From positions 1 to 32,559 of the forward strand of contig JAKSYS010000697.1 of the NCBI GenBank assembly GCA_022925895.1: a stretch of 32,559 bases of DNA, written 5' to 3'. The notes under the pieces were generated by a model. That model saw only the letters and a list, made by a program, of their open reading frames with translations, was not told where the DNA came from and searched no databases. The translations under genes and the position numbers were made by a program. This document shows, piece after piece, positions 1,475-31,683 of the stretch (within the stretch, counting starts at the first letter, position 1; each line of letters begins with the position of its first letter). This DNA comes from Fragilaria crotonensis (Eukaryota; Bacillariophyta; Fragilariophyceae; Fragilariales; Fragilariaceae).

Positions 1475-4214
1475 CTAGGCACGGAGCATTTTCTCAAGCG
1501 CGGTCTTGGCCAACTGGCCGTACGCAGCGTTCTCGGTTTTGAGGCAAACCTTGCAAGCATTGACGCCTTGCTTGAAAGTAAGCTCTGTCAAAAAGTCCAT
1601 CCCAGTAATCGTTCTCATACTGAAGTAAACCACCTCTTGCCCTTCCTGATTGGGAACGGGGCGGCGAGCAATGAAGAATACATTGTAGGCCCTGAACTTG
1701 TTTTGCACTTGATCAATGCCAGTAGAGGACGGAGGTAAATCCGCGACGGTTCCGTAGACTTCATTCGTATCATCGATTGACTTCCAAGCCTCGATAAAGG
1801 CAGATCGATCAAGTGCGCCTTCAGAAGAGAACAGAGCCTCGAAAGAAAAGTTAGCGGCAAAGTAAAAGACACCGCCAGTTGCCATGTTCTTGATAGCGAC
1901 CTGGACTTGAGGGGAAGCCTGCTGACCAGGCGCAATAGGAGCCAGCATGTTCGGAGTGACGTCCAACTCCACAGTGCTTCGTCCAGCGCCACCAATCCCG
2001 ACAGGAGGGTTGCAGGCAATCTGCTGGTTGTCCGGGGTAAGGCCAAATGCGTTTTTGTTGAGCTGGATAGCCAAACTAGACAGCGGAGCGGGGCAGCTAA
2101 CATTCTGGAATTCAATGTCCATGCACACTGTGCCTCCTCTCTGGTAAAATCCGGCGAAAATGTCGAGTCCACCAGATTTATCGGCAGAGCAAACTTGAAC
2201 CAGCTCAACCTGAGGCTTGGCGTAGCTGTCTTGCACAGAGAGACCACCAATGTCGAGCAGGTCACCGCCGCCGCCACCGACGTCATTCTCATCCTCATAA
2301 TCTTCTTCGTCTTCTTCCTCCTCCTCTTCGTATGCACCACCAGTTCCACGGGGGCCACGGACCACAAATGCCTCTGGAGGTTTGTGATAGACACTAGAGA
2401 GCGTAGCGATCTGACCAATCAGAATGCTGAGAAGAGCCGGTTCTAAGCGGAAAGTGTCATCTTCGATAACAGGCTTGTCCCCCAACACCACCATCTTGGC
2501 AGCCTCGGGATCAGTACTAAGCAAACGCCAGTAAATGAAACCACGATCGCGCAAATCAGGGTTGTCTGACTCTTCAGTTGCCATATCCAAGACGCGTTGT
2601 ACCATATCTTGAGTGTCCTCGGGATTTTTGAGGAAACACTTAACAGTCGCTGTCAGTAGCTGTAGTTGGACTGCTGGATCCTCTTCTTCGAAAGTCTCTA
2701 GGAAGGTGTCGAGCAGCTCATCAGCGTTGTCAATGCGTTCGGCGTACTCTCCGATGATCCAAATCATGCTTGCCTTGGCGAGAGGTTCGTCCAAAGTATC
2801 CAAGTTATCACAGAGAGTGGCAATGATGCTCTCATAACGATTAGGATAACGACGGAAGATGTCCTTGATAACAATGACGGACTCCTGGACAACATAGTTG
2901 ACCTTCGTTTGAATCAATTCAAGGAGAACCCCAATACATCTTTCGGCAGCACGTTCCAACTTGACGGCGCATCGACCAATGGCAGAGACAGACTTACGAA
3001 CAAAATCAACATCAACCTCCGTAGAGTACTCCTTGAGCTCCAACAATACTTGATCAATGTTCTTCTCCGAAACGAGTTTGATGATGATTTCGAGTTTTTC
3101 CATCTGAAAAAAGAAAGAACGGTAAGCCTCGTCTTTTCTTGGCTTCGAGCACACTCCACTAGCACAGCGCAGGTCAGCGTACCTTCACATAGATCGGATC
3201 ATTGTATTTGCAGAAAAAGACCTTGATTTCATTCTCCAAAATGGCAGGACGTTTCTGAACAATCAAATTGATGTTTCGCAACGCCACGTACTGAATTTCA
3301 GGTTCCGAATTCAGCAATGTCACTAGCGGTGGAGCCAGCTTGCGCGTAAGGTTTCGAATGGCATCCGAGGCTCCTCCTAGGGAGTCCATGTAACTCAAGA
3401 TTACCTTAACGGCAGACATGACGACTGCCGAGTTCGCGTGTTGCAGTCGAGGTGTGACACGTTCAATGATACCTTCCGCTTCGCGACCGTCTGCAGGCGA
3501 GTACTTTGCCAGGGAATCCAAGATGAAGACTTGTCCCCACTCGGTACATTCGTTGAGCGCGGCAAGCAACTTTTGAAGTACAGACGCCGTAATCTTCATC
3601 ACATCGCGCCCAGAGGTCTCGGCGATCTCAGAAAGTGCCGCAACTCCGTTGGCGACGACGGAAGGGTTGGAATCACTAATCAAATCATGCAATACTTCCA
3701 AAAATCCGCGCTCTTGAACGAGATCAGGGGCAATATCGTACAGTTTAGCAACACAAACGGCAGCAGTCTTCCTGACGTATGGATCTTCATCACGCAAGGC
3801 ACGCGAAAGCGGTTCGCACAAGTACTCAGTAATGCGATCAACACGGATACATCCCATGGTACGGACAGCGAGAGCCCGAATCAGAGGATTTGGATCTGAC
3901 GCATCCTTGACAAAGGTATTGACTGCCAAAAGAGTTAACTCGGGCTGGGACTTGGCATAGTTAATCAGGTACAAATACACCAATTTCTTCAGCTCAATGT
4001 TCCCAGTCTGTGCACAGTTCAAAACATCGGTGAAGAGCATACTAACATCCTTTCCGACCGTCATGGACGCAATAACTTTCTTAACGGCGTCAACCTTCGT
4101 TACGCGGTCCGTCGAATTGAGTTCCATCTTGAGTTCGTGCATTTCACCCTTTTTCTGAGTGGTAAAGAAGCGAGAATCGCTTCCGCCTTCCTTGCCCAAG
4201 ATTTTGGCAGCCAT
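1475..4214 (-). CDS. Beta subunit of clathrin adaptor complex AP-1/AP-2 (beta-adaptin, 886 aa, two exons)
   Basis: This is the large beta subunit of the AP-1 and/or AP-2 coat adaptor, which links clathrin to cargo membranes at the trans-Golgi or plasma membrane. Exons read 4214-3183 and 3103-1475, with a 79-base GT-AG intron (GTACGC donor, TTTTTTCAG acceptor, phase 0) falling inside the conserved [17 protein letters not shown] block. The N-terminal HEAT-repeat trunk (about 1-590) is strongly beta-adaptin-like, including [13 protein letters not shown] near the start and GRCAVKLE after the intron. An acidic run of E/D (about 603-618) leads to a Gly patch and DLLDIG (about 625-630), a degenerate clathrin-box-like sequence. 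The C-terminal appendage follows (about 640-886), with a sandwich subdomain and then a platform. Whether it serves AP-1, AP-2 or both cannot be decided from sequence; many protists have one shared beta subunit. The hinge is short, about 40-50 residues. Confidence 0.96.
3104..3182 (-). other. Spliceosomal intron of the beta-adaptin gene (79 bases)
   Basis: The donor GTACGC follows the AAG codon ending at 3183, and the acceptor TTTTTTCAG stands just before the ATG codon at 3103. Removing it joins two halves of a highly conserved adaptin block in frame (phase 0), which makes it one of the safest introns in the window. Confidence 0.93.
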
Positions 4215-5068
4215 CTTGAATGTTCACTATTGACAAAGGGATGCAAGCAACTCAAGTGAGCACAGAAGAAACGCGGCGGCAACACATTAATCTCACTGGA
4301 GCATTGAATGGTCATATTCATGTAGCACCTCGTAGAAATCATACCACAAAGGATGCAATGGGAGAAGCCGACGACCCGACGGCATCCAACATGGATTCTT
4401 TGTCTGATTCCCTCATTTTCCCGCCGCTTCTACAGCTCGTCTGGTCTGTCACAGGTAACATGGTTGAGGATTGCCAGCAAGCTCTTACCTAGTGCAGTTT
4501 TTGGTTGAACGGTAGAAGGAATCAACGAAATGGAACTGGTCGCAAGGTGCTGTAACGCTGCGGTGTTCAATGCGGTGAAATGCCAGATTTAAACGAGTTT
4601 ATGTATGATACAGATATGAGGACAGGCCATCCCGGAGAAATCGTCACTTTGGCCATCTGAGCAGGGTGAAGGAGTGTCCAGCTGTGTCGCACGTTAGAAG
4701 ATTTAATCTTGCTCATGTACAGTAGTTTGCTCACCTCCGCTGAGCTCCTGACTACTTGTACTGACTACTGACTGCAAGTACCGCCGGGTTCTTGTGCTTG
4801 TACGGGCATAGTACTTCAGTGGCGTTTGTGCTCTGCATTGTACTGTATTACGATACTGTAGTAAAGTCTCGGTCTCGTCTGGCCACAGACTGACGTTTTC
4901 AGACATCACCATCACTCACGAAGTGTTCACAGTTAACCCAAAGAAATGAGGTGTGTCACACCAATTTATGCGTTAGACGTTTGACGTTTGACCATCACAC
5001 ATCACACTGATCATCCATCTAAGTTGAAGGGGGGGGAAAGACCACAATCAGCTTGAAGACACTCTACC
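4215..5068. promoter_or_regulatory. Divergent intergenic region between beta-adaptin and CysRS
   Basis: No gene is seen. It must carry the promoters of two divergently transcribed genes. Positions 4710-4870 are rich in GTAC, AGTA and TACTGACTAC-like strings, resembling the other GTAC-rich islands in the window. A short palindrome, GGTGTGTCACACC (4950-4962), and a TGACGT element near 4982 lie close to the CysRS start. TGACGT is the core of a described CO2/cAMP-responsive element in diatoms, but a single hexamer is weak evidence. A run of G follows near 5028-5036. Confidence 0.4.
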
Positions 5069-14292: not shown

Positions 14293-15629
14293 CGAATTGG
14301 TCCGATTTCAAGTTTCTATTCCCCCATGCCATACATTCGCGTAACCAGGCACGGTGCGACGTCAATGAACGGCCCTATCAAAGTATTGTATGTAAATTGT
14401 TACTAAGGGACGTTACTCTACTTTAATAGCACTTGATTGGGGGCCATCTTCCTTAAACAGCGCAGTGTCAAAGGGATTTCGAGAATGAAAGTGTTTTGGT
14501 GGTGCAAATATGACCTTATGAATCTACCCGTGTCCTCGAAACAAGGTTCATCACATCCTTCTCTTCAATTCAAGAATCCACACCAACTAACTTCTTCCTT
14601 GAAGTTATGTCTCTGGTATACATGTCCCTCGTGAGAGTCCCCTTCAAGCAATCCTTTTGCTTGGTGGAGTAGACCTATCCTACATACATCCTACCGTGAA
14701 AAATGACAAGTGGTCCGCCCGCGACCCGCGACCCGTGACAATTGATGGGGCCGAAAGAAGTGATTGGAAGTGACCGGAGCCGGCCCGGACCTAAAAAAAA
14801 TAAATACACGGACCGCAGCCGCCCGAAATCACGGCCGGCCCACGGTTTCCGGCCGGCTGCGGCCAACGGGCCCCGACGTCATCTGCACTGCTGGTTGGAC
14901 GCGCCCATACCCCATACCCACCCATTATCCATGGGTATCGGTGGGTACTTGTACTGGGGGGCCGTATGGGTACCAGGTATGCCAGGTACCGGTAACATAA
15001 TATCAATGGGTATGGGTGGGTACCTGGTACAAGTACTGGGTATGATACCAGTACATCATTGCAACCATTCTCGTACCTGGTACCGGTATGATGCTACTAG
15101 AGTGATAGGTTGGTACTGTACATATTACATATCCATAGAGGGATGAAAAGCAAAGAGCCACGAGCCACAGCCCGATACCCACTTGCCACGCGCCACGAGT
15201 GCAGCACATCGGCAAATTAATATTTCACTGATCCGTGTTATCTTAAACAGCCTAATTATATAACTTAGGGACTGAATAGCTTTATAAGAATTTTACGTCG
15301 ACCTACTTTAGGTGATGCACATGGATTTTTCATTTCATTTAAAAACGTATGTATGAAAGTTAAGGTTTCTTCTTTGCAATCAAAGTCTACAGAAAAGAAC
15401 GAAAGACAAAATTACACTTCATAAGATGATTCGATAGTCACCATCGAGTCACAGCTGTTTCTCTATATAATGGCGTGTGCTCGAACGTTATCGCAGTACC
15501 GAGCTAGGCATTGGCGCGAACGCTAGCTTGGATAACTTAAATGAAAAATTTGCCGAGGCCAATAGTCAATAATCCATGCCAATAGAGATCACATAATAAT
15601 TCATTTCCCCCCGTATGGAGAAATAAACG
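14293..15629. other. Intergenic region with GC-rich patch and GTAC/GGTACC hairpin-prone repeat
   Basis: No gene is seen over 1.3 kb. Positions 14700-14880 are strikingly GC-rich with CCGGCC strings. From 14905 to 15125 there is a low-complexity stretch made of CCCATACCC, GGGTACC, GGTACCGG and CCTGGTAC, with many self-complementary arms (for example CCCATACCCACCCAT against ATGGGTATCGGTGGGT). After 15220 the sequence turns AT-rich. A TATATAA string at 15464-15470 lies about 165 bases before the ATG of the next gene and could be a TATA element. Confidence 0.5.
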
Positions 15630-18594
15630 ATGAAGTTGGCTTTCTCCGTTTTCCTCTTCACCTTGTTTGGCTATGCAGTGGCGGAATCATCGTCGTCGTC
15701 CTCGATATGTCTGCCTGATTGCTCTTCTGGTTCGTGTGTCTTCGACTTGAATGTTCGACTCACAGCTGGTCAACTCGGTACGTTGGTAAAGCAGTCTGAG
15801 ATCTGACGATGACCTATCTTCTGACAAACTTCGCCTGCCCCTCTGTTGATTTTCTTCACTTCTCTATGTGATTAGGCTACTTTGAAGTAAGGGGGTGCGA
15901 TGGTGTTAACCCCACCCTCGGGTTGGAAATTGGTGTGACGCATACGTTCCTGCAACATGAGTACGAAAACTTCTACCACCCAATGGGATTTGCCTACTTT
16001 CCTGATGGCGCTCACGACGGCGTTGATGAATTGCAGCCCGATATTGCGCCTCCAGGAAGCGGCAGTGATTGTGCTAGCAGCGCAACGTGTCCTTCCCCGA
16101 TGTACTTTTTGAATGGAGAGTATTTGGGTTCCTACAGTAATGACCCCGATGTATTGCCGACGACTACAAACGAGACAGACTTTGGTTTAGATAGCTACGA
16201 ACCAGTCTTTTTCTACCCATTCAACCAATGGGTTGAATTTGGCTTATTCAGCATCAATCTTCGATTTGACCAAGTCTACGACAAAGATATTTTCTACTTC
16301 TGTCACGTACGTACTTCGGTGCCTGGTGTGTGTGGTGTCGATTCTAGTCTCACCTCTTTCTTTCACATTGTTATCGGGACGCAGATTCATCAATTCATGA
16401 CTGGCAGAATTAAGCTTCTCCAGAATGGTGTCCCGACGCAGCCTGATGATGACCTTCCAGAGATTCCCTACGAATACGATGTGCCATCAGAATACGACGT
16501 GGAATGTGGCTCGTATGGAATGGCTGATTTTCAGCTTCCGAACCCACAATGCCCAGATAGATTTGTCTGTGGCGCTGGTTCTCTTGGAACGTTTGCTCAT
16601 TGTATCGAGACACAGAACTGCTACATGTTCATCGGCATGACTACTGGTGCTTCGGCGGGATCTGAGGTAGCCCTCTTTTTGCATCAGATGATTCCTCACC
16701 ACGAGAACGCCATCAACATGGCGAAGACCTTGCTCAAAGAAGCCGGCCTCAGCTGTGGTACCTTTGTCGACTCCCCTGATTGCGTCATGTATCAGATTGG
16801 TTTGGAAATTGTTAGCGATCAAAACTTTCAAGTGCAGGCCATGAGAGGATTAATTGAAGCATACGGCTTCAATGCGACGAACGATTGCGTTGTTCCAGTA
16901 TCAAGTCGCGACCAAGGAGGTTATTCGCAGTATGACAGGCGTGGTTTGATAAGCGATGAAATCGAAGAGAGGCCAACAATCGCTGCGCGAGATAACTCGC
17001 CGAAAAAATCTGTTCGCGGAGCCGACAAGGAGAGCCGAACGCTCAGCGAAGGGGAAGACAGTAACATTTGCATCTCTTCCACGGGAACATATACTGTTCG
17101 AGTCGACTTGTACGCAGGTGAACTCGGTAAGTAAGGCATACCTGTGTGTCTTATTTCCAAGCAAGAGTTGAATACAGCTGACATTGTCTCGAATTGCTCA
17201 GGATACTTCACGTTTGAAGAATGCGGCGATCTCATCAATCCCACTATTGGCATGGAGATCGGAAAAACGTATGTCTTTGAACAGAAAGATCGTTCCAATT
17301 ACTACCATCCTTTAGGTTTCGCGTACTTCCCAGATGGAGCTCACGCTGGTTTGGACGAGCTCGAGCCTGGCATCCCACCGTACGGTAGTGCCTCCGAATG
17401 TGCCGATGACCTGACATGCCCTGCTCCCATGTACTTTAAGGACGGCGAGTATTTGGGAAACTTCAGTAACATCCCAGAAGTACTAGCAGCGACCACGGGC
17501 GAGGAATACTTTGGGTTGGATGACTACGAACCTCTCTTCTATCGCCCTAGCCACGAATGGGCAGGTGCCAACTTTTCGATCTCTCTCAAGTTCGACGTGG
17601 ACGACTTTGCTAGTGATTTGTTCTATTTCTGCCACATTCATCAATTCATGGCGGGTCGCATCAAGTTGCTCAAGCATGGAGTTCCGGTAACGTCTGACGA
17701 CGTTCCTGAAGTTCCATACAAGTACGACAAGCCAGGAAACTTTGATGTCAAGTGCGGTTCATTCGGACTCGATAACTTTCAGCTTCCCAACCCTCAGTGC
17801 TTCGAGCCGTTCGTATGTGACGTCCAAAGCGGTAATTCCAACCTGGAGTTATACGCTGAGTGTATCGAGGCCATGAATTGCCACATGCTTGCAGGCATGA
17901 CGACCAAGGCCACGTCCATGTCCGGAGTCGCTCTCTTTATTCACCACATGGTCCCTCATCATCAGAACGCAGTCAACATGGCCAAATCTACGCTTAAGCT
18001 TGCCAGCTATCAATGTGACGATTTGACCGTAGACTCGAGTGACTGTATCCTCGAACGAATCCTTCGCGAGATTGTCAATAGTCAAAACTTCCAAATTCAG
18101 GTATGTCTGTTCGCTTTGCCTGCTGCTATCCGTGCCAAAACTTGTCCTCACAATCCGTCCACGTGTAGTCCATGTACAAGGTCCTAGAAGCGCAAGGCTT
18201 CCCCAAGACGGACGATTGTATCGTGACGTTCAATCCAGTCGGCAATGGAGAAAATGACGATGATGCTGCGGAAGAGAACTCAACTGATGATCACAGTGAC
18301 GATGACGAAAGCGGCGATGACGAAAGTGGAAGCGACGACGACGAAAGCGGCGATGACGATGACGACGACGATGATGATGATGATGACGACGAAAGCGAAT
18401 GCGACGACGAAAGCGGATGCGACGACGACGATGAAAGCGATGATGACGAGAGTGGAAGCGGCGATGACGAGAGTGGAAGCGATGATGACGCTAGTGATGG
18501 TGATGATAGTAGTGACGATGAATCCTCAACCGAGGACGGCAGCGATGATGATGGTGACGCCGATGGGAGAAGGCTAGGCGGATCAAGGCGGTGA
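15630..18594 (+). CDS. Paralogue A: secreted double cupredoxin-DUF305 protein with acidic tail (881 aa, five exons)
   Basis: Exons: 15630-15777, 15876-16306, 16385-17126, 17202-18100, 18169-18594; the joined frame has 2646 bases. A signal peptide (MKLAFSVFLFTLFGYAVA) precedes CLPDCSSGSC. Module 1 is a cupredoxin with YHPMGFAYFPDG and, across the exon 2/3 junction, FYFCH/IHQFMTGRI, giving type-1 copper ligands His, Cys, His, Met in the spacing Cys-X2-His-X2-Met. Next comes a DUF305-like domain with MFIGMTTG and LHQMIPHHENAINMAK, rich in His and Met. Module 2 repeats this order: YYHPLGFAYFPDG, FYFCHIHQFMAGRI, HMLAGMTTKATSMSG and IHHMVPHHQNAVNMAK. The last exon ends in about 100 residues of Asp/Glu/Ser, then RRLGGSRR. 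No plastid motif follows the signal peptide, so a secreted, periplasmic or wall location is inferred. Role inferred: extracytoplasmic copper binding, transfer or redox. Intron 2 (78 bases) is free of stops in frame. Confidence 0.9.
18250..18570 (+). repeat. GAT/GAC/GAA-rich repeat encoding the acidic tail of paralogue A
   Basis: Imperfect trinucleotide-like repeats encode blocks of Asp, Glu and Ser such as DDESGSDDDESGDD, with two Cys residues inserted (ESECDDESGC). It lies within the coding frame of exon 5, and neither B nor C has anything like it at the same place. Replication slippage is the likely origin. The reverse-strand Ser-rich reading is a shadow. Confidence 0.85.
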
Positions 18595-20110
18595 GCGGAA
18601 TTGCAGAAAAGACAAGAACCGCCAACGACGCCCAAAGGCATCGCGGTCTTGATCGCCAATGTTTGTTGACCACTTTCCTGTTCTTCATGAATACCTTTTC
18701 ATAAATTGTCTGTCGTGGATGTGTTGACAGCAACGAATAGTCTGCAATAGTGGTGATACTGGCAGCATTGGCATACGATTAACGCCAGGCCACTTACCAG
18801 CAATTAAAATATCAGAAAATCTGTTAATTGCTCAAGAGCTTCTGTTGCTTCGAACGAACTTAGCTGCTGCCGATGCATTCATGAAAGCCCGGCTCAAGCT
18901 GTTTTTGTTTGGGTGCATCGGATATCTCATTGAAGCGATAGGACTCTCCTTTGCCTACGAACTCTTTCAAATTGCAAACATCGATCCCACGGCGTAAAGC
19001 TTGAGCGAGGGTGCCACCATTCATGGAATCTCGCAAGCTGCACTTTAATGGTGCTGCCAACCAGCATCGCTTGAGCGAACATTCCTCGTGACATCAAGTT
19101 ATAGTCTGTGTCCCATTTTTTTTTACACCGAACACATTTTTATTGATTTGTGAGGTTGGAAATATGGACGGGAGTGGATCTCATGTTACATTGCCACCCT
19201 TGTGATAGTCCTATAGTGTATGAAGTATGCGGTACTGGTACAAGTACAGTACCAGGGACCAGCCCTCGCAGCGCATGCCATGAAGCAAGCAGCAACCATT
19301 TTTTTTTGCATCCTACTATGATACTACTACTCTACAAGGCGTTCGTAGTACAAGCTGTATTTCATCGCGGTCCGAACACCCAGGTAGAATTCAACTATGA
19401 TATGAACCGCTTGAATCGAGCTAATGACATACTAGCCGTTAGCCGTACAGTTGAGGCTAGACGCTAGACGCTAGACCAAACTAAAAGGAGCGTGGCGAGC
19501 ACGCGCCAAACCCTGTGCACCCGAAGCCTTCTGATGTTTTTATCTTTTTTCTTCAAGTCGACGTCCAACAATACATCGGTATCATACCAGCTCTACCTTA
19601 TTTCAATGGCGCGCCGAAGATCCAGGTCGGCGCATCGATTGGTCCTTGGGATTCGGCCTTGGGATATCCTCCCCTTTCGCCTTGACCACCTTCCGTTCCA
19701 GCACCAAGCACGCAACAAAAGCATGCCAGCACCTGGTATTTAGAATTTAGACTTCGTGAATGATCGCACATGTGCGCCTTGTATGCGTGTCCTCCGTGTC
19801 CCAAGGATTTGACTGGAGGAAATAGAATGTGAGGTTAATGGTGCCCGCCCCTGCATTTGTGGCAGGGATCCTGGACCATTCCCTGCACATGCGCAGGATC
19901 AAGAATCTACGTTTGTCGCTTCCAAGTGACGCGCATCTATGCAACAATCAACAATACACAATACACAATACGAGTGCGAGTACCGGTTGGTGCCAGGATT
20001 CTCCCCTTCCCTCCCCACTCTCCACCCTCCACACATCATTGAGATCAAACATCAAACATCAAATCCACCTACGTCAACGCACAAATACCCAACATCTTGT
20101 GCCAGTCACC
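18595..20110. other. Spacer between paralogues A and B
   Basis: No gene is supported over 1.5 kb. It holds the 3' flank of A, a short GTAC-rich patch (about 19205-19345), several A/T homopolymer runs and the promoter of B. Upstream of B, positions 19945-20040 are CA-rich and then C/T-rich (ACAATACACAATACACAATACG, then CCCCTTCCCTCCCC). A 66-codon reverse frame at 18860-19060 has no recognisable similarity and is left out. Confidence 0.45.
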
Positions 20111-22934
20111 ATGAAGGCAATATTTCCTGCGTTATTGCTTATCATCGCAGCTCGTGCACAAGAGTTGTGCCTTCCAGATTGCTCGACTGGCAAATGCGTG
20201 TTCGATGTTACCGTACTACTGACTGCCGGTGAACTCGGTAAGAGGATCGGCCAGTGGACGTTATTCACCGAGGCGATGCAATGCATCATATACTCACCAT
20301 TTCGCAGGTTACTTTAAAGTCGAAGGATGTGATGGCGTGAACCCGACGCTTGGCTTGGAAATCGGAGTCACGCATACCTTCCTTCAAACTCATGACCACA
20401 ACTACTACCACCCCCTGGGCTTTGCATATTTTCCTGACGGGGATCATGCCGGTCTGGAGGAACTGGAGCCCGGCATTCCACCTCCTGACAGTGGTAGCGA
20501 TTGCGCCGAGACCATGACCTGTCCCGCTCCAATGTATTTTTTGAATGGCCAGTACTTGGGTTCCTACAGCAACGATCCCGACGTATTGAAGCCAACCACC
20601 AACAAAACCTACTTTGGTTTGGACGACTACGAACCAGTCTTTTACTATCCTTACGATCAGTGGTTGGGTCTTGGAAAGTTCAGTGTCAACCTTCGATTTG
20701 ACCAGGTGTACGACAAGGATATCTTCTACTTTTGTCATGTACGTTTTTTTTGCTGGGAAAGGATCGACAATCGATTCCTGTGTAAAGGATTATGCCAACG
20801 ATCTTCACAGTGATACACTCACACTTTTTTCACGCCCTTTTATTACTCAGATTCATCAATACATGACCGGCAGAATCAAACTTCTCCAAAATGGAGTCCC
20901 CGTCCAGCCTGACGAGAACCTGCCGGAGATTCCGTATAAGTACAACGAGCCAACCGAATACGACGAGACTTGCGGATCATTTGGTCTCACTGACTTCCAG
21001 CTTCCGAATCCGCAATGTCCTGATCGATTCATATGCGACGCCCCATCCGACGGGACTATGGGGCAGTTTGCCGCCTGCATTGAAGCACAAAATTGCCAAA
21101 TGTTCATGGGCATGACGACGGGAGTATCAGCACAATCCGTTGCTGCACTCTTTATGCATCAGATGATCCCGCATCACGTGAACGCAGTCCACATGGCCAA
21201 GACCTTGTTGCTGCATGGTGAACTAGATTGTGATGAGTTTAATCCTGACGATCCTGGATGTGTCATGTATGCGATGGGTTTGTCAATTGTAGACAGCCAG
21301 AATTTTCAGATTCAGAAAATGAGGGAGCTCCTCATAAACCAGGGTTTTCCCGAGACTGACGATTGTGTTGTACCCGTTTCTGGAAGTGTTGAGGGTAGCG
21401 ATGAGGAGGGGAAAAGGAACCTCCGCAGATTGGCCGGAGACCACACTGGCGAAGAAACTGGATATGCGTCAAAGGCCGCGAGGGACGTAGTATCCGAAAG
21501 ACCTGAGGACAGCCGAGTGAGTCGAGAGAGCGACATTGCTGCACAACGAAATCTTGAGAACGGCGAAGAAAGCATTTGCATTTCTACCACAGGAACTTAT
21601 ACTGTTCGTGTCAACCTGTATGCAGGCGAACTTGGTAAGTGATGCATACCTGTACTGATTGTATCCGATCATTGCCGGGCTGCACCTAACGTCGCCTCCG
21701 CAATGCGCAGGATACTTTACCTTTGATGAATGTGGCGATCAGATCAATCCTACCATCGGCATGGAGATTGGAGACAGCTACATCTTTGAGCAGTTTGATC
21801 GCAGCAATTACTTCCATCCCTTGGGTTTTGCCTATTTCGCCGACGGAGATCACGCCGGTTTGGACGAGCTTGAGCCTGGCATCCAGCCACATGGAAGCGA
21901 CTCTAGTTGCGCAGCAGATCTGTCCTGTCCAGCCCCCATGTACCTCAAGGACGGCGATGTGCTGGGAACGTACAGTAACAATCCAGACTTGCTAGCAGCA
22001 ACCACGTGGCAGGAAAATTTTGGATTGGACGACTACGAACCACTATTTTACCGTCCCATCCCTGAGTGGTCCGCATCCAAGTTTTCGATCTCTCTCAAGT
22101 TTGACGTGGATGACTTTGACCGTGATCTGTTCTATTTTTGCCACATTCACCAATTCATGTCGGGTCGCATCAAGCTTCTCAAGAACGGAGTTCCTGTCAC
22201 GGAAGGCGATGATCCGGAAGTTCCATACTCGTATGACCAGCCTGGCGAATTCGACGCCAAGTGTGGTACATTTGGCCTCGACAGTTTTCAGCTGCCGAAC
22301 GATCAGTGCTATGACCGTTTCGTTTGCGACGTACCTGACAATGATGCAAACCTGGAGTTATACTCCGAGTGTATCGAGGCGATGAATTGCCACATGCTTG
22401 CAGGCATGACAACCAAGGCCACGTCCATGTCCGGAATCGCTCTCTTTATTCACCATATGGTCCCACATCATCAAAACGCTGTAAATATGGCCAAGGCCAC
22501 CCTTAAGCTCGGCAATCTCGACTGCGATGACTTGACTGGAGAATCTGATGACTGCGTTCTGGAGCAAATATTGCGAGGGATAGTCAATGGTCAGAACCGA
22601 GAGATTCAGGTATGTCTGTGGAGTGTTTGCATCACCTTCATTTGCGCGTTTCTCAATTGTTCGCACGCAGGACATGTACGGAGTCCTTGAGGCTTTGGAA
22701 TTCCCCAGGACGGATGATTGTATTGTGCAGATTCGTGGCAGCGAAACCGCAGACGATGCCGGGTCCTCGGACACCCCTAGCGTAAATAACACTGTTGATA
22801 CAGACGTATTCCCTTGGGAGAAACCCAGGCAAAAGAAAGCCAAGTCTTCGAAGTCGATGGGCATGGAGACCAAGAAGATCGCAAAACGTCATTTGGCGGA
22901 AGGAGTTACACGAGGTTGGATTCGTGGAAGTTGA
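20111..22934 (+). CDS. Paralogue B: secreted double cupredoxin-DUF305 protein with basic tail (834 aa, five exons)
   Basis: Exons: 20111-20237, 20308-20738, 20851-21634, 21711-22609, 22671-22934; the joined frame has 2505 bases. Signal peptide MKAIFPALLLIIAARA, then CLPDCSTGKC. Module 1 shows YYHPLGFAYFPDGDHAG and FYFCH/IHQYMTGRI, followed by DUF305 MFMGMTTG and MHQMIPHHVNAVHMAK. A hydrophilic linker with NLRRLAGD leads to module 2: YFHPLGFAYFADGDHAG, FYFCHIHQFMSGRI, HMLAGMTTKATSMSG, IHHMVPHHQNAVNMAK. The DUF305 end pattern is visible as IVNGQNREIQ/DMYGVLEAL across the last intron. The tail is short and basic (RQKKAKSSKSMGMETKK). The cupredoxin halves and exon 3/intron 3/exon 4 junction are nearly the same as in paralogue C, while introns 1 and 2 are unlike those of C. 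Predicted secreted copper-binding protein. I am sure of the domain order; the biological role is inferred. Confidence 0.9.
21635..21710 (+). other. Intron 3 of paralogue B, nearly identical to intron 3 of paralogue C
   Basis: The 76-base intron runs from GTAAGTGATGCATACCTGTA to CAATGCGCAG. Its counterpart in paralogue C (27013-27090, 78 bases) differs by only one visible substitution and a two-base indel. The other introns of the two genes cannot be aligned by eye. Non-coding identity this close indicates recent conversion or exchange. Confidence 0.9.
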
Positions 22935-23679
22935 CTCCACGAGATGACAGCAAATGCATATGCACATGAATACATAGTAAGCGATTAGAGCTTGAGCATG
23001 GCGATATGTCCCTGTGAACCCTATCAACTACAGTCAGGGATGTGACTTTGAGACCCAAACGATGGTCAAGATATAGAGGGGATGTGAAAGGTGGAACATG
23101 CTACACCAATAATCAGTAGCGATTCACAAGTGACGATAAACGCTAAAAGTCGTACAGACACATCAGATCCATCTAGTATTGCGTTTGGAAGTGTCGTTTG
23201 CCTGGTTGTGCTCGCCTGAATGGGTCCAAATTATAACCTTGACCGATCGGGCGCCAACACTATGACATATTCATTTTTGATTTGAAGTCGACCTGCCACC
23301 AGTGTGTTAAAAATGTTAAATGCAAAAAGGATGATCTTTATTCAAAACAAAACCGTCATTTGCCGGATCAATCCTTTCGTACACGGTGATACCAGTATGA
23401 CAATCGTACTACATACTTGGCGCAACAAGTACTGCTACACCCCATGTGGGGGGTGGGGGGGGGGCACTTCATCGCACCGTACACCGTACGCCGTAGACTC
23501 CGATTCTATGCTGTATCACAGTCCGTAGTGTCAGTGTATGTATGCATACTGCATACTACGCACTACGCACACAGAATACTCAGTTGATGGCTGTCCTGAA
23601 TATGCTCTCGATGGGAAACGCATGGGCACGCAGCAACATACCCTGCCGCAGATCACAACGACTACCGTAGGTCATAACC
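22935..23679. other. Spacer between paralogue B and the cyclophilin gene
   Basis: No gene is seen. It includes a G-rich run at about 23446-23464 (interrupted by a single T) and a following CCGTACACCGTACGCCGTAG patch, part of the GTAC-rich class. The cyclophilin promoter must lie at its end. Confidence 0.45.
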
Positions 23680-24444
23680 ATGATTTACTCAGCATTCGTC
23701 TTATCGCGTCGACTCACCTTTCAAACGAAGAATCAATTAGTTCGGACTCTCTCAAATGCTGGTCAACAAAGCAGCGGCAATGGCGGTCCTTCCGTCCGTC
23801 AAATCGGCACCTTCGCCGTTGCTGGAGCCGCAGCGTTTGGCATTTACTTTGTCGCTCGCGAGCTCATGACAAATGATGATGATGGCGAAGATAACACGAA
23901 TCCCACGCCGGTGCCTCCACAAGCAACAATCACCTCCCGGGTATTTTTTGATATCACAATTGACGGAAATCCAGTCGGTCGCATTGTGATGGGATTGTAT
24001 GGAGATGTAGTTCCGAAGACGGCTTTGAATTTCCAAACGTTGTGCGAAGGTGACAAGGAGCTCAATGGTCAGAAACTATCGTATATTGGAACACCCTTTC
24101 ATCGCATCATTCCAGGGTTCATGTGTCAATCCGGTGATATTACTAATCACAATGGTTTTGGGGGAGTGAGCATCTACGGAACCAAATTCGAAGACGAGAA
24201 TTTTCAACTCAAGCACACGGGTGGTGGCGTCTTGAGTATGGCAAATGCTGGACGCAACACCAATGGTTCGCAGTTTTTTATCTGCACCAAGAAAACGTCG
24301 CATCTTGATAATAGGCATGTCGTTTTTGGGACTGTTCTTGAGGGGTACGACGTTGTTAAGATGATTGAAGCGTGTGGACGAAGCAATGGAACGCCGTTCA
24401 AAAGGGTTGTGATTGCAGGTGCAGGTGTGCTGCCTTTGGTTTAA
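23680..24444 (+). CDS. Membrane-anchored cyclophilin-type peptidyl-prolyl isomerase (254 aa)
   Basis: This is a cyclophilin with an N-terminal extension. The catalytic domain covers about 87-252: [31 protein letters not shown] (about 88-118), the active-site [14 protein letters not shown] with R142, F147 and Q150, and [18 protein letters not shown]. At the position of the cyclosporin-contacting Trp of human cyclophilin A (the WLDGKHVVFG block) this protein reads [10 protein letters not shown] with His208, so drug affinity is probably low. The first 28 residues hold Arg but no acidic residue and look like a mitochondrial presequence. A hydrophobic segment (about 42-59) then anchors the protein, with an acidic linker before the catalytic domain. 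Inferred site: mitochondrial inner membrane, although a signal-anchor reading is possible. It lies between two copper-protein paralogues, but nothing in the sequence links their jobs. Single exon. Confidence 0.94.
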
Positions 24445-25407
24445 GATTCAGGTAAAGCACATAGCATGATGAGAAACGACTTAAATCATAAAACTGATTC
24501 ATGTGTTCACCTAATGCAGCGAATCGTGTACGAATAGACGTGCCTATCGGTAGACCAAGGGTTACTCGAAACGTTCCTCCTGGTATATACGACTGGTACA
24601 TGCAAGTATCATAGCTACCGGCTGGGGCGGCACGCTGGCAATCATTCACTGTATGGCACCAGTTCCTGGTCAAAGGTACTAGTACCTTGTACTACAATTA
24701 CGCAGAGAAAATGCATTCAACTAAAAATGCCATGCTCACTGCTCTGCGGCTCCCTCGAAGTCAACTCGAACTGGCGCCAACGAAGACTCGAAGGGGATAG
24801 GTTTTCCAGTTGACCGAGACGACTCGAAATTTGGAACTGGATCAAACGTTATAATGCTTCGGATATCTTGTGACTAAAAAACGTAATCACATAATTGAAC
24901 CACGATCAATAGACACTCGCCCGATTGAGTCATGTGGCACGTGTCCTATTAAATGTGAGAGAAATGGCGTATCTATGTCTTCACATTTCAAACGAAAGAA
25001 TTGGTGTGCCACCTCTTCCGGTTTTGAGCATAGACAGAGAGGTTCTCGACGTAACGAGTAAATAACGTATAAAACACCTTCATGCAGAAAAACTCGTATA
25101 AGGAAGTTCTACTATCGCTGAATTAAGTGCGCGCTGGGTACAATGCCACACGTCGTCGAGTGCGCCGAGCAGGACATTCAGTTAGCAATGCACAAAACAC
25201 TTCCATGGCTACAGCGCGTCACTTATCAATGTGCACATGCACCGTGACGCACGATTCAAAATCTTATGGACAACGGATCGGAGCCGTATTCGCCAAACAA
25301 AGGTGCGCGGGAAGAGGCTGGAGGGACATAACACAGGGAAGAGATTCACATTGCTTGTTTTCTTGGTCAGTAGGGCTCGAGAATTGACACAAAACCACTG
25401 CAAATTC
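24445..25407. other. Spacer between cyclophilin and paralogue C
   Basis: No gene is supported. A short GTAC-rich patch lies at 24590-24700. GTATAAAACACC near 25068 resembles a TATA box, but it lies about 340 bases before the ATG of C. Small open frames here have no recognisable similarity. Confidence 0.4.
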
Positions 25408-28400
25408 ATGAAGTTGCTAATTTCAGTTTCCTTGCTACTGGCCGTTCGCGCCGAGGACAAGCCATTGTGCCTACCGGACTGCTCAAGTGGCACATGCGTT
25501 TTTGACGTTAGTGTTCGACTTTCTGCTGGTCAATTAGGTAAGGTGGCTAACGATCCAACCATGTGAGAGGATTCCAATGCAGCCCATCTGTAGCTTGGAT
25601 ATGGTTTTGGCGTTGACAATAACAGTGAATCTGAAAGCATCAGTCGCGGCGATGAGTCCAAGAAAGCGCTAGCTAATGCATCTCTGGCTATTCCTTGCAG
25701 GATATTTCAAAGTCGAAGGATGTGGGGGCGTGAATCCGACTCTTGGCTTGGAAATCGGAGTCACGCATACCTTCCTCCAAACTCATGACCATAACTACTA
25801 CCACCCCCTGGGCTTTGCATATTTTCCTGACGGGGATCATGCCGGTCTGGAGGAACTGGAGCCCGGCATTCCGCCGCCTGATAGTGGTAGCGATTGCGCC
25901 GAGACCATGACCTGTCCCGCTCCAATGTATTTTTTGAATGGCCAATATTTGGGTTTCTACAGCAACGATCCCGACGTATTGAAGCCAACCACCAACAAAA
26001 CCTACTTTGGTTTGGACGACTACGAACCCGTCTTTTACTATCCCTACGATCAGTGGTTGGGTCTCGGAAAGTTCAGTGTCAATCTTCGTTTTGACCAGGT
26101 GTACGACAAGGATATCTTCTACTTTTGTCATGTACGTGATTTATCAATGATTCACGATCTTTTTTGTGTATCCATGCTGCTGCATGATTTGTGTGTGATC
26201 TCACAATGATTTACTAATGCTCATGCGCTTTCCACGCCCTCTCGTTTCAAAGATCCATCAATACATGAGTGGCAGAATCAAACTTCTCCAGAATGGTGTC
26301 CCCGTCCAACCCGATGAGGACCTCCCGGAGATTCCGTACAAGTATAACCATCCAACTGAATACGATGAGACGTGCGGATCATTTGGTCTCACTGACTTCC
26401 AACTTCCCAACCCACAATGTCCTGATCGATTCGTATGCGACGCCCCATCCGACGGGACTATTGGCCAATTCGCTGCCTGTATAGAAGCACAAAACTGCCA
26501 AATGTTCATGGGCATGACGACGGGAGTATCGGCACAATCCGTTGCTGCCCTCTTTATGCATCAGATGATTCCACATCACGTGAACGCAGTTCACATGGCC
26601 AAGACCTTGTTGCTGCATGGTGAAGTAGATTGCGATGAATTTGATCCTGAAGATCCTGGCTGTACGATGTATGCGATGGGGTTGTCGATTGTGAATAGCC
26701 AGAATTTTCAGATTCAGAAAATGACGGAGCTTCTTGAACTGTATGGCTTTCCCGAGAGTGACGACTGCGTTGTTCCGGTTTCAGGAAGAGTTGATGAGAG
26801 AGAAAGGCAAGTTCGTAGATTGACCGGAGGCTACACGGGCGAAAAATCTGGAAATGCATCAAAGGACACAATGGAAGGAGTGTCTGAAAGACCCAAGAGT
26901 CGAGACAGCGATATTGCTACACAACGTATCCTTGACGAAGGGGAAAGTAACATATGTATTTCTACTACGGGAACATATACTGTTCGTGTCAACCTGTATG
27001 CAGGCGAACTTGGTAAGTGATGCATACCTGTAATGATTTTGTATCCGATCATTGCCGGGCTGCACCTAACGTCGCCTCCGCAATGCGCAGGATACTTTAC
27101 CTTTGATGAATGTGGCGATCAGATCAATCCTACCATCGGAATTGAGATCGGTGACACCTACACCTTTGAACAGTTTGATCGCAGCAATTACTTCCATCCA
27201 TTGGGTTTCGCCTATTTCGCCGATGGAGATCACGCCGGTTTGGACGAGCTTGAGCCTGGCATCCAGCCACATGGAAGCGACTCTAGTTGCGCAGCAGATC
27301 TGACCTGTCCAGCGCCCATGTACCTCAAGGACGGCGATGTGCTGGGAACCTACAGTAACAATCCAGACTTGCTAGCAGCAACCATGTGGCAGGGAAATTT
27401 TGGATTGGACGACTACGAACCACTATTTTACCGTCCCATCCCTGAGTGGTCCGCATCCAAGTTTTCGATCTCTCTCAAGTTTGATGTGGATGACTTTGAC
27501 CGTGATCTGTTCTACTTTTGCCACATTCACCAATTCATGTCAGGTCGTATCAAGCTTCTCAAGAACGGAGTTCCTGTCACAAAAGAGGACGTCCCCGAGC
27601 TTCCATACGAATACGACGCCCCCGGCGAATTCGACGCACAGTGCGGATCCTTCGGCCTCGATGATTACCAACTTCCCAACGATCAGTGCTTCGATCGGTA
27701 CGTTTGCGGAGCCCCTGATGATGACTCAAGCCTTGGACTGTATTCTAGATGCATTGAGGCAATGAATTGCCGAATGATCGCAGGTGTGACGACAAAAGCA
27801 ACGTCCATGTCTGGAGTCGCTCTATTCATCCATCACATGGTACCGCACCATCAGAACGCTGTCAATATGGCAAAGAGTACCCTGAAGCTTGCCGGGCTTG
27901 AGTGTGACGACTTGACTGGGGACTCGAATGACTGCGTTCTCGAGCAGATTTTGCGTGAGATCGTGAATGGTCAAAATCGCGAGATTCAGGTGAGTATTAC
28001 GGATCAGTTTCTTCTCGTTCGTTCGACGTAATGTTGGCCTCTAACTCTGCTTTCATCGACTGCAGCTTATGTATGGAGTTCTCGAGAAACTTGGCTTCCC
28101 CAAGACTGACGACTGCATGGTCAAGATGGAGCAGCACAGCGCAGATGACGGTCATGACGTTGTCGTTGAAGTTTCCAACGCCAGTACTAACGCCAATGCC
28201 GATATGGACAATCATGAGTCAACGAATGGCGGCACATCAGTGGAAGGCATGCATAAGAAAGCAGGCGAGTCGCCGAAAGGCATGCAGATGAGAGGCGCGT
28301 CGCTGAAAGGATCGTCAACAGCAGAAAAGTCAAGCAAGTCTACGAAGGATGTGACTTCGTCAAAGATGAAAGGGATGTCGGCAAGAGCCAAGTCAGGGGA

Positions 28401-28461
28401 GACGCCCAGTTCATCAAAGATGGCGATGCCTTCGTCTAAGATGAAAGGCAAAAAGTCGTAA
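25408..28461 (+). CDS. Paralogue C: secreted double cupredoxin-DUF305 protein with Lys/Ser/Met tail (871 aa, five exons)
   Basis: Exons: 25408-25537, 25701-26131, 26253-27012, 27091-27989, 28066-28461; the joined frame has 2616 bases. Signal peptide MKLLISVSLLLAVRA, then CLPDCSSGTC. Copper ligands of cupredoxin 1: His78, Cys186, His189, Met192; cupredoxin 2: His476, Cys584, His587, Met590. The loop length Cys-X2-His-X2-Met equals that of amicyanin. DUF305 domain 1 spans about 265-352 (MHQMIPHHVNAVHMAK at 289-304), and domain 2 about 664-750 (IHHMVPHHQNAVNMAK at 687-702, ending REIQ/LMYGVLEKL across intron 4). The linker between modules has QVRRLTGG. The last 70 residues are Lys, Ser and Met rich (for example KGMQMRG and SSKMAMPSSKMKG), quite unlike the tails of A and B. 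DUF305 is, as I recall, the family of the cyanobacterial copper-binding protein CopM. Predicted secreted copper handler; no enzyme activity can be assigned. Confidence 0.9.
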
Positions 28462-29948: not shown

Positions 29949-31314
29949 TTACAGCTCAACCTCGTCAATGCAAGCATGATCGCATCCCTCAGACCAAATA
30001 TAACACGTTCTGTTGGGTTCTGGAATTTCCACTCCTCCATCTGTACAGATGGGGCGAACTTTACCCATACAACTTTCTGCAGCCAACTTGAGCCCTCGCT
30101 GTAGCGCTGCCATGTTCTTCTGAAATTCGACTGGATCCAGTGATGCGATAGTCCGATCCAAGGACTTATTCACTGCTTGGTACATCAGAATGTCGTTGGC
30201 GACAGTGAGTTTCCACTCATCCGATTCAAAGTACGCTTTCATATGGGGCGTCAAAAAGGATTTCATAATGAATATGCACGGTCGGCCATGCCAACCGTTG
30301 GAAAAGGTCCCAGAAGACCTCGCTCTCGTGTACAAGATTTCTTTGGTCGTCAAACCAAGCAGCATTTGAAACACCACTAAACTCTCATCCATGCGCTCCA
30401 TTATGGCAATAAAGTCGTAATCATCCAAAATATCCTGAACGACTCTGTTGGGGTCGTAGTTCAGCCCAAATTCATTGCTGGAAAGGCGCTGTCGGCGCAA
30501 CAGTTGTGTCGGACCCGGCTTGGGCGACCTTATTGCAATCTTTAAATCACGCACTGTTGCGTAGCCCACGGACTTGGCAAAATCAAGGTCGGATACGACT
30601 GTCCCATTGGGAACGTACTGTCGGGTGGAGAGCTGAGATAGGTAGTGATTGAAATATGCGGACCTCGCCATTTGGAGAAAATTGTCGTCTGTTGGTTCCT
30701 TTTGATAGGCAGTCACATCAAAATGAAAGAACTGGAGATATTAATCGGGCGGTGGGATCTCGAATGATGGAAAAGAGGAATGATTTTGTTCGGTCTCTCT
30801 TGCCGTATTGGTAATGTTTCGCTACGCCATGCATGGTTCGATGTTTGCACTTGTCAAATGTTCCTCCTTCTCGATGCATCTTGGCCCGATTATGCGCCAA
30901 TCTCAGGATGATGCCCACCATTGTGGTTGATCCAGTCTTGTGCGGTCTCTGAAACAGAATTCCTTCTGCAGCAGGAGTCTCTTTCATCAGGAGTGGTTCA
31001 CCTTTAAAGCAAGGAAATGGATGCTCGAATTTCGGAAAGACACGAGACGGGCCCGTGTATGGTTCAGTGATTATTGCAACAGATTTTTCTTTATATCTGT
31101 CTATTTTGCTTGCGCTCAGGCGGTGCGGAATTGAGTAAACAATTGCTGTGTCATTTGGTTCGATGGTTATTGGTATGGAATGAATCACCGAAGCGAGTGT
31201 CCAAGTAATGCATGCTGTGATGACAACTATCAGGGAACTTGAATGCCACGGCAGTGATGTCTGTCTTTTCTCAGGTACACGAATTATTGCTTTGTCCTTC
31301 CTTGACCTCGCCAT
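29949..31314 (-). pseudogene. Golgi-type sulfotransferase with an internal frameshift
   Basis: The gene reads in two frames: 31314 down to about 30736 (193 residues), then 30734 down to 29949 (261 residues). Together they would make about 454 aa. The first part has a single hydrophobic anchor (about 27-47), as in type II Golgi enzymes. The PAPS 5'-phosphosulfate loop FQRPHKTGSTT (121-131) and the 3'-phosphate motif SIIRDPTARLIS (182-193) follow. Directly after that motif one extra C (complement of base 30735) shifts the frame and brings a stop after SPVLSF. The other frame continues at once with the expected FFHFDVT, then IMERMDESLVVFQMLLGL and a Cys-rich end. The pattern resembles galactose-3-O-sulfotransferases, which sulfate cell-surface glycans. 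It could be a recent pseudogene, an allele, or an assembly error; no splice donor rescues it. Confidence 0.82.
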
Positions 31315-31683
31315 ATTATTGGAGTAATGAACTGGAAATCTATTCTGACTGATGACTGATACCTGTAATACTTTTCTTCATTGTGTTTATTTCCGTTGAG
31401 CCTGTAATTTTAAGTTTTAACCAGTCTGGGGGGCTGCCGTTGGCCGCGTATTGAATGTCGTAGTGTTGTACTGTCGTAGAGGAGGAAGGTCTGGCAACGC
31501 ACCTTTGTTCGGTATGTTTTGCTTGTAGAAGCTACGAGACAAAATCTGATTTTGCCGGACCTTCCCAGGATCTGTTGATAGTACATGTAGTGTATGTTGT
31601 ACGATTTTTTTTTGACGGTGCGACTTCATGGTTCTGACACGTATGACAAAGACTACGTCGCGACAACGTCGCGACAGTAATAT
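31315..31683. other. Region upstream of the sulfotransferase
   Basis: No gene is seen. It includes the sulfotransferase promoter and, at 31421-31500, the sequence CCAGTCTGGGGGGCTGCCGT with GTCGTAGAGGAGG, which recurs in altered form at 32020-32076. It therefore belongs to the repeat block that fills the end of the window. Confidence 0.45.

Follow-up and report, generated by a model that had tools for sequence, protein, structure and literature searches.

Three neighbouring genes on the + strand of a 32,559-nucleotide stretch of Fragilaria crotonensis DNA (contig JAKSYS010000697.1, positions 1 to 32,559; hereafter, the window) each encode a probably secreted protein, in which a cupredoxin-like domain and a DUF305 domain follow one another twice. 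The interpretation to which we incline, with modest confidence, is that the three genes form a tandem family of the ISIP3 type (iron starvation induced protein 3), with a doubled secreted module of an amicyanin-like cupredoxin and a CopM-like DUF305 domain that may serve as a copper-dependent redox and copper-holding unit.

Gene models and the repeated module

The predicted spliced models comprise gene 1 (15630..18594, + strand, 881 residues; exons 15630-15777, 15876-16306, 16385-17126, 17202-18100 and 18169-18594), gene 2 (20111..22934, + strand, 834 residues; exons 20111-20237, 20308-20738, 20851-21634, 21711-22609 and 22671-22934) and gene 3 (25408..28461, + strand, 871 residues; exons 25408-25537, 25701-26131, 26253-27012, 27091-27989 and 28066-28461). 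Exon borders were placed by hand at conserved GT-AG sites, giving five exons per gene separated by introns of 61-163 nucleotides, and the four intron positions are identical across the three genes. All three models show the same order: signal-peptide-like N-terminus, cupredoxin-like domain, DUF305 domain, linker, cupredoxin-like domain, DUF305 domain and tail. An earlier note on the window had proposed three same-strand paralogues with two cupredoxin and DUF305 pairs each, and the spliced models bear this out, in exact agreement with its first ATG (15630) and last stop (28461). Its array of three stands as regards the tandem paralogues, but a cyclophilin gene (23671-24444, + strand) separates gene 2 from gene 3. 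The local expansion proposed in the same note agrees with the distribution of module matches across the genome contigs, 14 of 15 of which, including all the strong ones, fall within the window as three neighbouring copies; the fifteenth is a weak match (E 0.68) on contig C47. No relatives of the modules were detected in scans of prokaryote contigs and viral contigs.

Intron 1 in module 1 and intron 3 in module 2 interrupt the protein at one and the same site, AG[EQ]LG^YF, and the four-domain chain is therefore read as a two-domain module repeated. This suggests that the module was doubled together with its intron before the whole gene was copied.

The DUF305 domains are located at 16439..16900 and 17690..18231 in gene 1, at 20905..21378 and 22199..22733 in gene 2, and at 26307..26780 and 27579..28128 in gene 3, all on the + strand. 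All six modules matched Pfam PF03713 (DUF305), the profile with which the earlier note had proposed to check its assignment, and all six carry M[IV]PHHxNA[IV]xMA, including the M(I/V)PHH core described there; in the first domain of gene 1 the stretch is MIPHHENAINMA at 16688-16723. When PF03713 was compared with eight single-exon frames, the six DUF305-bearing frames all matched (E 1.2e-4 to 2.9e-7), two of them exceeding the gathering score of 27 bits, while the two frames with cupredoxin exons only gave no match. The NCBIfam profile for CopM (NF049983) was likewise matched by all six modules, with a best E of 6e-8. Searching the PDB (E up to 5) with a profile of the six modules gave seven sequences, led by two of CopM (E 1.4e-6 and 2.2e-6) and followed by 7vw0 (DUF305, 0.024), 2qf9 ('putative secreted protein', 0.027), 7vw1 (DUF305, 0.063), 3bt5 (DUF305, 0.23) and a prefoldin subunit (0.55). 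Among solved structures, these matches place the DUF305 part closest to the copper protein CopM.

CopM of Synechocystis (PDB 5fej, the best match) is described as secreted and partly extracellular, with tight binding of Cu(I) and a part in copper resistance (PMC4335983). It shares with the modules the M-x-P-H-H ... M-A core and the presence of two DUF305 domains per chain, and its secretion has a parallel in the probable secretion of the modules. In contrast, the published description of CopM has two DUF305 domains and no mention of a cupredoxin, and names copper as the inducer (PMC4335983), and the curated cut-off of NF049983 (90 bits) is far from reached by member 1 of our set (27.6 bits).

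The cupredoxin-like domains are located at 15705..16438 and 17066..17689 (gene 1), 20165..20904 and 21574..22198 (gene 2), and 25465..26306 and 26952..27578 (gene 3), all on the + strand. The candidate copper ligands, His ... Cys-x2-His-x2-Met (H84, C192, H195 and M198 in the first domain of gene 1), are conserved in 6/6 modules, as had been noted before, although, since the modules are paralogous, these are not six independent observations. The comparison profile was an alignment of 13 plasmid-borne bacterial cupredoxins with invariant G, W, H, C, H and M. Alignment of the module profile with this set by hhalign gave a probability of 77% and a score of 35.3, against a maximum of 22.1 in 200 column shuffles and 10.8 for the reversed profile. 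The aligned part consists of a strand and loop, FYFCHIHQ[FY]M-x-GRIKLL, with the amicyanin spacing C-x2-H-x2-M. The sequence comparison thus supports the copper loop, that is, the Cys-His-Met half, as being of cupredoxin type, and this support covers the loop and not the whole fold. The Gly-to-His stretch of amicyanin-like cupredoxins can also be aligned with the modules, but not significantly.

Pairing of the two domains and relation to ISIP3

A comparable pairing is found in bacteria. A DUF4142 gene lies upstream of plasmid cupredoxins of Sinorhizobium, Mesorhizobium, Ruegeria, two Rhizobium and one Aminobacter. Prokaryote contigs were scanned with five DUF4142-adjacent cupredoxins and the best 80 of 442 relatives were kept; in 79 of these 80 loci a DUF4142-like frame on the same strand immediately preceded the cupredoxin, a proportion that overstates the pairing in general because the queries were themselves chosen from DUF4142-adjacent cupredoxins and only the best relatives were kept. 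In the sole exception only 153 bases lie ahead of the match. From their title names, we take all but one of the 80 loci ('Bacterium M00...') to be of Alphaproteobacteria. Seven DUF4142 proteins, hand-picked from the 79, all matched the DUF305 profile as a second family, with E 1.2e-4 to 3e-3 and scores short of the curated cut-off, and in a separate comparison one of two DUF4142 proteins did so (E 1.2e-5). One DUF4142 protein compared with the PDB showed no clear relative, the single match having E 0.53, and a literature search found no paper naming both DUF4142 and cupredoxin. A looser association is described for Myxococcus xanthus, where a cupredoxin protein is encoded, together with a lipoprotein of the DUF305 family, among the nine genes of the copper-tolerance operon curA (PMC3707914).

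The bacterial two-gene pair can be regarded as a counterpart of the ISIP3 single chain, and it supports a joint function of the two domains, because a DUF305-related helix protein is encoded together with an amicyanin-like cupredoxin. The pair resembles the modules in that a DUF305 relative adjoins an amicyanin-like cupredoxin within one cupredoxin subfamily, but it differs in being two genes, in having the reversed order, and in carrying DUF4142 instead of DUF305 proper.

DUF305 is the stated mark of ISIP3 and has been placed in the ferritin superfamily (PMC7966952), and a single clause of a 2026 paper credits ISIP3 with a cupredoxin/plastocyanin-like domain as well (PMC13284251). ISIP3, reported from diatoms, Pelagomonas and Karlodinium, is iron-responsive and listed as a cell-surface protein in diatoms, with 1, 1, 1 and 2 copies in four species (PMC3491386). 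In T. oceanica it is strongly tied to low iron (PMC3491386, PMC9873189), its transcript falling to the high-iron level within 30 minutes after iron supply (PMC9873189), and it is used as an iron-stress indicator in ocean phytoplankton (PMC10632500). As far as descriptions can be compared, the three genes described here agree with ISIP3 in combining DUF305 with a putative cupredoxin-like domain, and differ in that each encodes the module twice and that three copies lie close together on one contig.

The kind of protein is thus already known, and the earlier view that the architecture is undescribed holds, within the literature covered, for its doubled form, as the two-domain module has been described for ISIP3 (PMC13284251). 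Lommer et al. name CREGx2 and ISIP2x8 as proteins with duplicated domains, but not ISIP3 (PMC3491386), and the literature covered on ISIP3 and DUF305, which excludes an ISIP review (Behnke and LaRoche 2020), gave no doubled ISIP3 or tandem array. The main text of a paper on F. crotonensis and pH (PMC9732472) contains no iron, ISIP, copper, cupredoxin, DUF or plastocyanin, and a phytotransferrin proximity paper (PMC7972479) makes no mention of DUF305. Within the literature searched, the doubled module, the three copies, the RXL linkers, the unlike tails, the patchy homogenisation and the bacterial pair are new.

Linkers, tails and divergence of the modules

The linkers between modules 1 and 2 are located at 16901..17065 in gene 1, 21379..21573 in gene 2 and 26781..26951 in gene 3 (all + strand), and contain two (16940-16948 and 17036-17044), three and two RXL tripeptides, respectively. 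The resulting seven sites in 177 residues compare with a mean of 0.89 in shuffled sequences, none of 20000 shuffles reaching seven, but as the three linkers are paralogous the sites are not independent. The three tails contain two RXL (0.13 in shuffles, p 0.004), and the remaining 2113 residues contain five. In all three genes an RXL stands directly ahead of module 2 (SRTL-SEGED, QRNL-ENGEE and QRIL-DEGES). The tripeptide alone is weak evidence, because this genome also has it in its phytotransferrin-type frames (5 in 887, 2 in 260 and 6 in 746 residues, counted from stop to stop), and only the clustering in the linkers was used.

The three tails are unlike each other. That of gene 1 (18232..18591, + strand, 120 residues) is acidic, with 42% Asp, 17% Ser, 12% Glu and a net charge of -61, and ends in RRL-GGSRR; that of gene 2 (22734..22931, + strand) contains Lys and Ser, with RHL near its end; and that of gene 3 (28129..28458, + strand) has 20% Ser, 14% Lys and 8% Met. 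RXL is described as a cutting or presumed cutting site in precursors of diatom wall proteins (PMC4557024, PMC5647440, PMC5525289). In silaffin, cingulin, frustulin and silacidin precursors it stands at the end of the repeats, as RRIL or RRNL in the case of silaffin (PMC4557024). The three proteins resemble RXL-processed silaffin, silacidin and cingulin in having RXL at module borders and charged tails, but folded domains would lie between the RXL sites here, and cutting and silica binding are conjectured from the sequence. The linker would probably be cut at RXL, giving two modules per gene with different tails.

By eye, the N-termini of genes 1-3 are hydrophobic and end in sites of the A-x-A type, and the highest 19-residue hydropathy outside the N-terminus is 1.2-1.3 in the three proteins. 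An ASAFAP-like plastid motif was absent from the N-termini of genes 1-3. As the earlier note had proposed from a signal peptide, the proteins are probably secreted.

Between genes, module 1 is 71-93% identical to module 1 and module 2 is 76-87% identical to module 2, whereas module 1 and module 2 show 52-56% identity. The similarity of genes 2 and 3 is patchy. Exon 2 is 95% identical; from about 21587 to 22185, which includes most of the second cupredoxin-like domain of gene 2, identity is 94-98% per 100 columns, and intron 3 is identical at 75 of 76 positions. Past 22185, near the end of this domain (22198), the value falls to 72-79% per 100-column step, as measured through the second DUF305 domain up to 22583. 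The first DUF305 domain is intermediate, with 80-94 identities per 100-column step, so that the pattern is not simply one of one domain versus the other. The other introns are 61-85% identical over their alignable parts, with gaps. Because intron 3 is 99% identical while the other introns differ, this pattern speaks for gene conversion or recent exchange in the high-identity stretches. For genes 2 and 3, dN/dS (non-synonymous over synonymous divergence) was 0.038/0.453 in module 1 and 0.073/0.714 in module 2, a ratio of about 0.08-0.10; dS values comparing module 1 with module 2, or module 1 of gene 1 with that of genes 2 and 3, were saturated and were not used.

Elsewhere in the window, intergenic segments rich in GTACC/GGTAC in both orientations were recognized by eye at 14890-15130, 19220-19280 and 24590-24700, possibly representing a dispersed repeat. 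Beta-adaptin (AP complex), an endocytosis-type gene and probably a chance neighbour, is encoded in two frames on the - strand at 1475-4223. Two overlapping open frames occupy 29949-31377 on the - strand: the frame at 30718-31377 contains a sulfotransferase-like KTGSTT stretch, and the frame at 29949-30740 gave no Pfam match.

Possible function of the module

The protein would enter the secretory route and reach the cell surface, the wall or endocytic vesicles. The Met and His residues of the DUF305 domain may bind copper in the form of Cu(I), while the cupredoxin may hold one type-1 copper and pass single electrons; together they would form a copper-dependent redox and copper-holding unit under iron starvation, beside the phytotransferrin route. 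Copper is favoured over iron because of the relationship to CopM, the Met/His residues and the presence of a cupredoxin, and electron transfer is favoured over plain scavenging because the type-1 ligand set is complete.

Several observations weigh against this reading. We infer membership in ISIP3 from the domain composition reported for that protein and not from direct sequence comparison. For T. oceanica ISIP3 introduced into P. tricornutum, a localisation resembling that of internalised siderophores is reported, and a role in the chloroplast has been proposed (PMC9873189), with which a location in the wall fits poorly. In gene 3 the N-terminal hydrophobic stretch is short, its hydropathy being below that of another 19-residue segment of the protein. 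The cupredoxin-like part of the six members matched neither Pfam nor the PDB at E up to 10; support for the cupredoxin assignment of the earlier note comes from the bacterial set, in the Cys-His-Met half, and not from the family databases. In the first-His half, PTIGMEIGKTYVFEQ aligns with PELHVKVGDTVTWIN in the right order, but with a probability of 0.5%, and 6 of 200 shuffles reached at least this score; forcing the alignment over the entire domain gave 3.4%, with the first half mispaired. The distance from the first His to the Cys is 108 residues, as compared with 39 in amicyanin, and an insertion of about 70 residues must therefore be assumed. Among 15 plasmid cupredoxin loci, DUF4142 was upstream in six, five had another or no annotated neighbour, and four could not be judged. 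A published iron-responsive motif, ACACGTGC, has one exact copy in the window, 471 base pairs upstream of gene 3, and none within 1000 base pairs upstream of genes 1 and 2. With up to one mismatch, 21 copies were found in the window against 27 expected; this candidate promoter element, being at chance level, was rejected. The 7- to 10-mers that the upstream regions of genes 1-3 have in common were within the range of shuffles.

The genome (62.1 megabases, 881 contigs) was searched exon by exon for other metal-related genes. It may be incomplete, the nuclear assembly of F. crotonensis SAG 28.96 being reported as 81% complete (PMC9476933). This search gave no match for the multicopper oxidase profiles PF07732 and PF07731, for the plastocyanin-type profile PF00127 or for the ferritin profile PF00210; PF07732 and PF07731 matched 8 and 9, respectively, of 14 control genomes, all prokaryotes. 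The link to iron uptake suggested in the earlier note agrees with the published iron response of ISIP3, while the specific idea of feeding copper oxidases becomes less likely with no multicopper oxidase found, as far as prokaryote controls and an exon-by-exon search of a possibly incomplete genome allow. Three matches for Fea1 (phytotransferrin-type), one for FTR1 and nine for FAD_binding_8 (reductase-type) were detected. In one long frame with a hydrophobic C-terminal stretch (contig C54:25345-27033) the Fea1 profile matches twice, representing a second doubled iron-related protein in this genome. The silicon-transporter profile gave 19 matches, 18 of them above the cut-off, against one below the cut-off among the 14 control genomes, indicating that the host genome is that of a diatom. 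Silicon transporter units also stand in tandem, three in a frame of 1456 residues (C97:29749-33762) and two in a frame of 1008 residues (C771:21664-24330).

The alternative that survives best, though we hold it improbable, is that of a copper scavenger: the secreted protein would soak up extracellular Cu(I)/Cu(II), as does CopM, during iron starvation, when the cell would take in or encounter more copper, the cupredoxin being an extra site. The role of CopM as a secreted binder in copper resistance (PMC4335983) and the DUF305 protein of the M. xanthus copper-tolerance operon (PMC3707914) agree with this proposal, as does the report that iron-limited P. calceolata has higher copper quotas, to which ISIP3 may, according to the authors, be related (PMC13284251). 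Among five plasmid DUF305 contexts, two include annotated copper or silver genes and two do not; the fifth, a Synechocystis plasmid locus that also encodes an efflux adaptor and a two-component system, was taken to be the published copper-responsive pcopM. On the other hand, ISIP3 is reported to follow iron (PMC9873189, PMC3491386), and no copper response was found in the ISIP3 literature consulted; no copper pump is annotated within 1.2-1.5 kilobases of three DUF4142-cupredoxin pairs; and the full type-1 ligand set with the low dN/dS would suggest electron transfer over storage.

Storage or binding of iron at the surface, with ferritin-like iron sites in DUF305 and a capacity raised by doubling, appears unlikely. 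It would accord with the ferritin superfamily placement of DUF305 (PMC7966952), with the designation of ISIP3 as a putative iron-storage protein (PMC9481584), with the proposal that domain duplication in iron-regulated surface proteins increases iron binding (PMC3491386), and with the lack of a PF00210 match in the genome. The nearest solved DUF305 protein, however, is the copper binder CopM, the Met/His sites would suit Cu(I), induction by starvation would fit storage poorly, and the cupredoxin is left unexplained.

It is very doubtful that the products are primarily cell-wall proteins, directed to biosilica by RXL cutting and by acidic or Lys/Ser tails and using their metal domains for wall chemistry. 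The QRIL, QRNL and SRTL just ahead of module 2 recall the RRIL and RRNL ends of silaffin repeats, and the Asp/Glu/Ser-rich tail of gene 1 recalls silacidins as described (PMC4557024). Against this, the number of silaffin-like KXXK in the tails exceeds that of shuffles weakly at best (p 0.03 in gene 2, 0.29 in gene 3, none in gene 1), and RXL is not confined to such proteins, as seen in the phytotransferrin-type frames. The least probable explanation, that the cupredoxin-like part is another beta domain with incidental Cys, His and Met and no copper site, would account for the missing family matches, the non-significant first-His half, the poor global alignment and the long His-Cys insertion, but is opposed by the profile match centred on the copper loop, by the cupredoxin/plastocyanin-like domain published for ISIP3 (PMC13284251), and by four ligands retained in 6/6 modules despite a divergence of 44-48% of residues between modules 1 and 2.

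Returning to the copper-dependent module, a further-reaching proposal can be made, which we offer as speculation and rank behind the copper scavenger and ahead of iron storage. Proteins of the ISIP3 type would be copper redox proteins, not iron stores. The module, as the fused counterpart of the bacterial pair, would carry out a one-electron iron step, for instance Fe(II) oxidation for phytotransferrin, in a genome with no multicopper oxidase detected, and the chain would be a polyprotein cut at RXL, with its modules routed apart by an acidic or a Lys/Ser-containing tail.

ISIP3 serves as an indicator of iron stress and has been called a putative iron store; the residues and relatives identified here point to copper. 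If the module is indeed a copper redox unit that oxidises Fe(II), ISIP3 would connect the supply of copper in diatoms with their starvation for iron. Natural comparisons are offered by the doubled and possibly cut form in F. crotonensis and by the bacterial two-gene counterpart.

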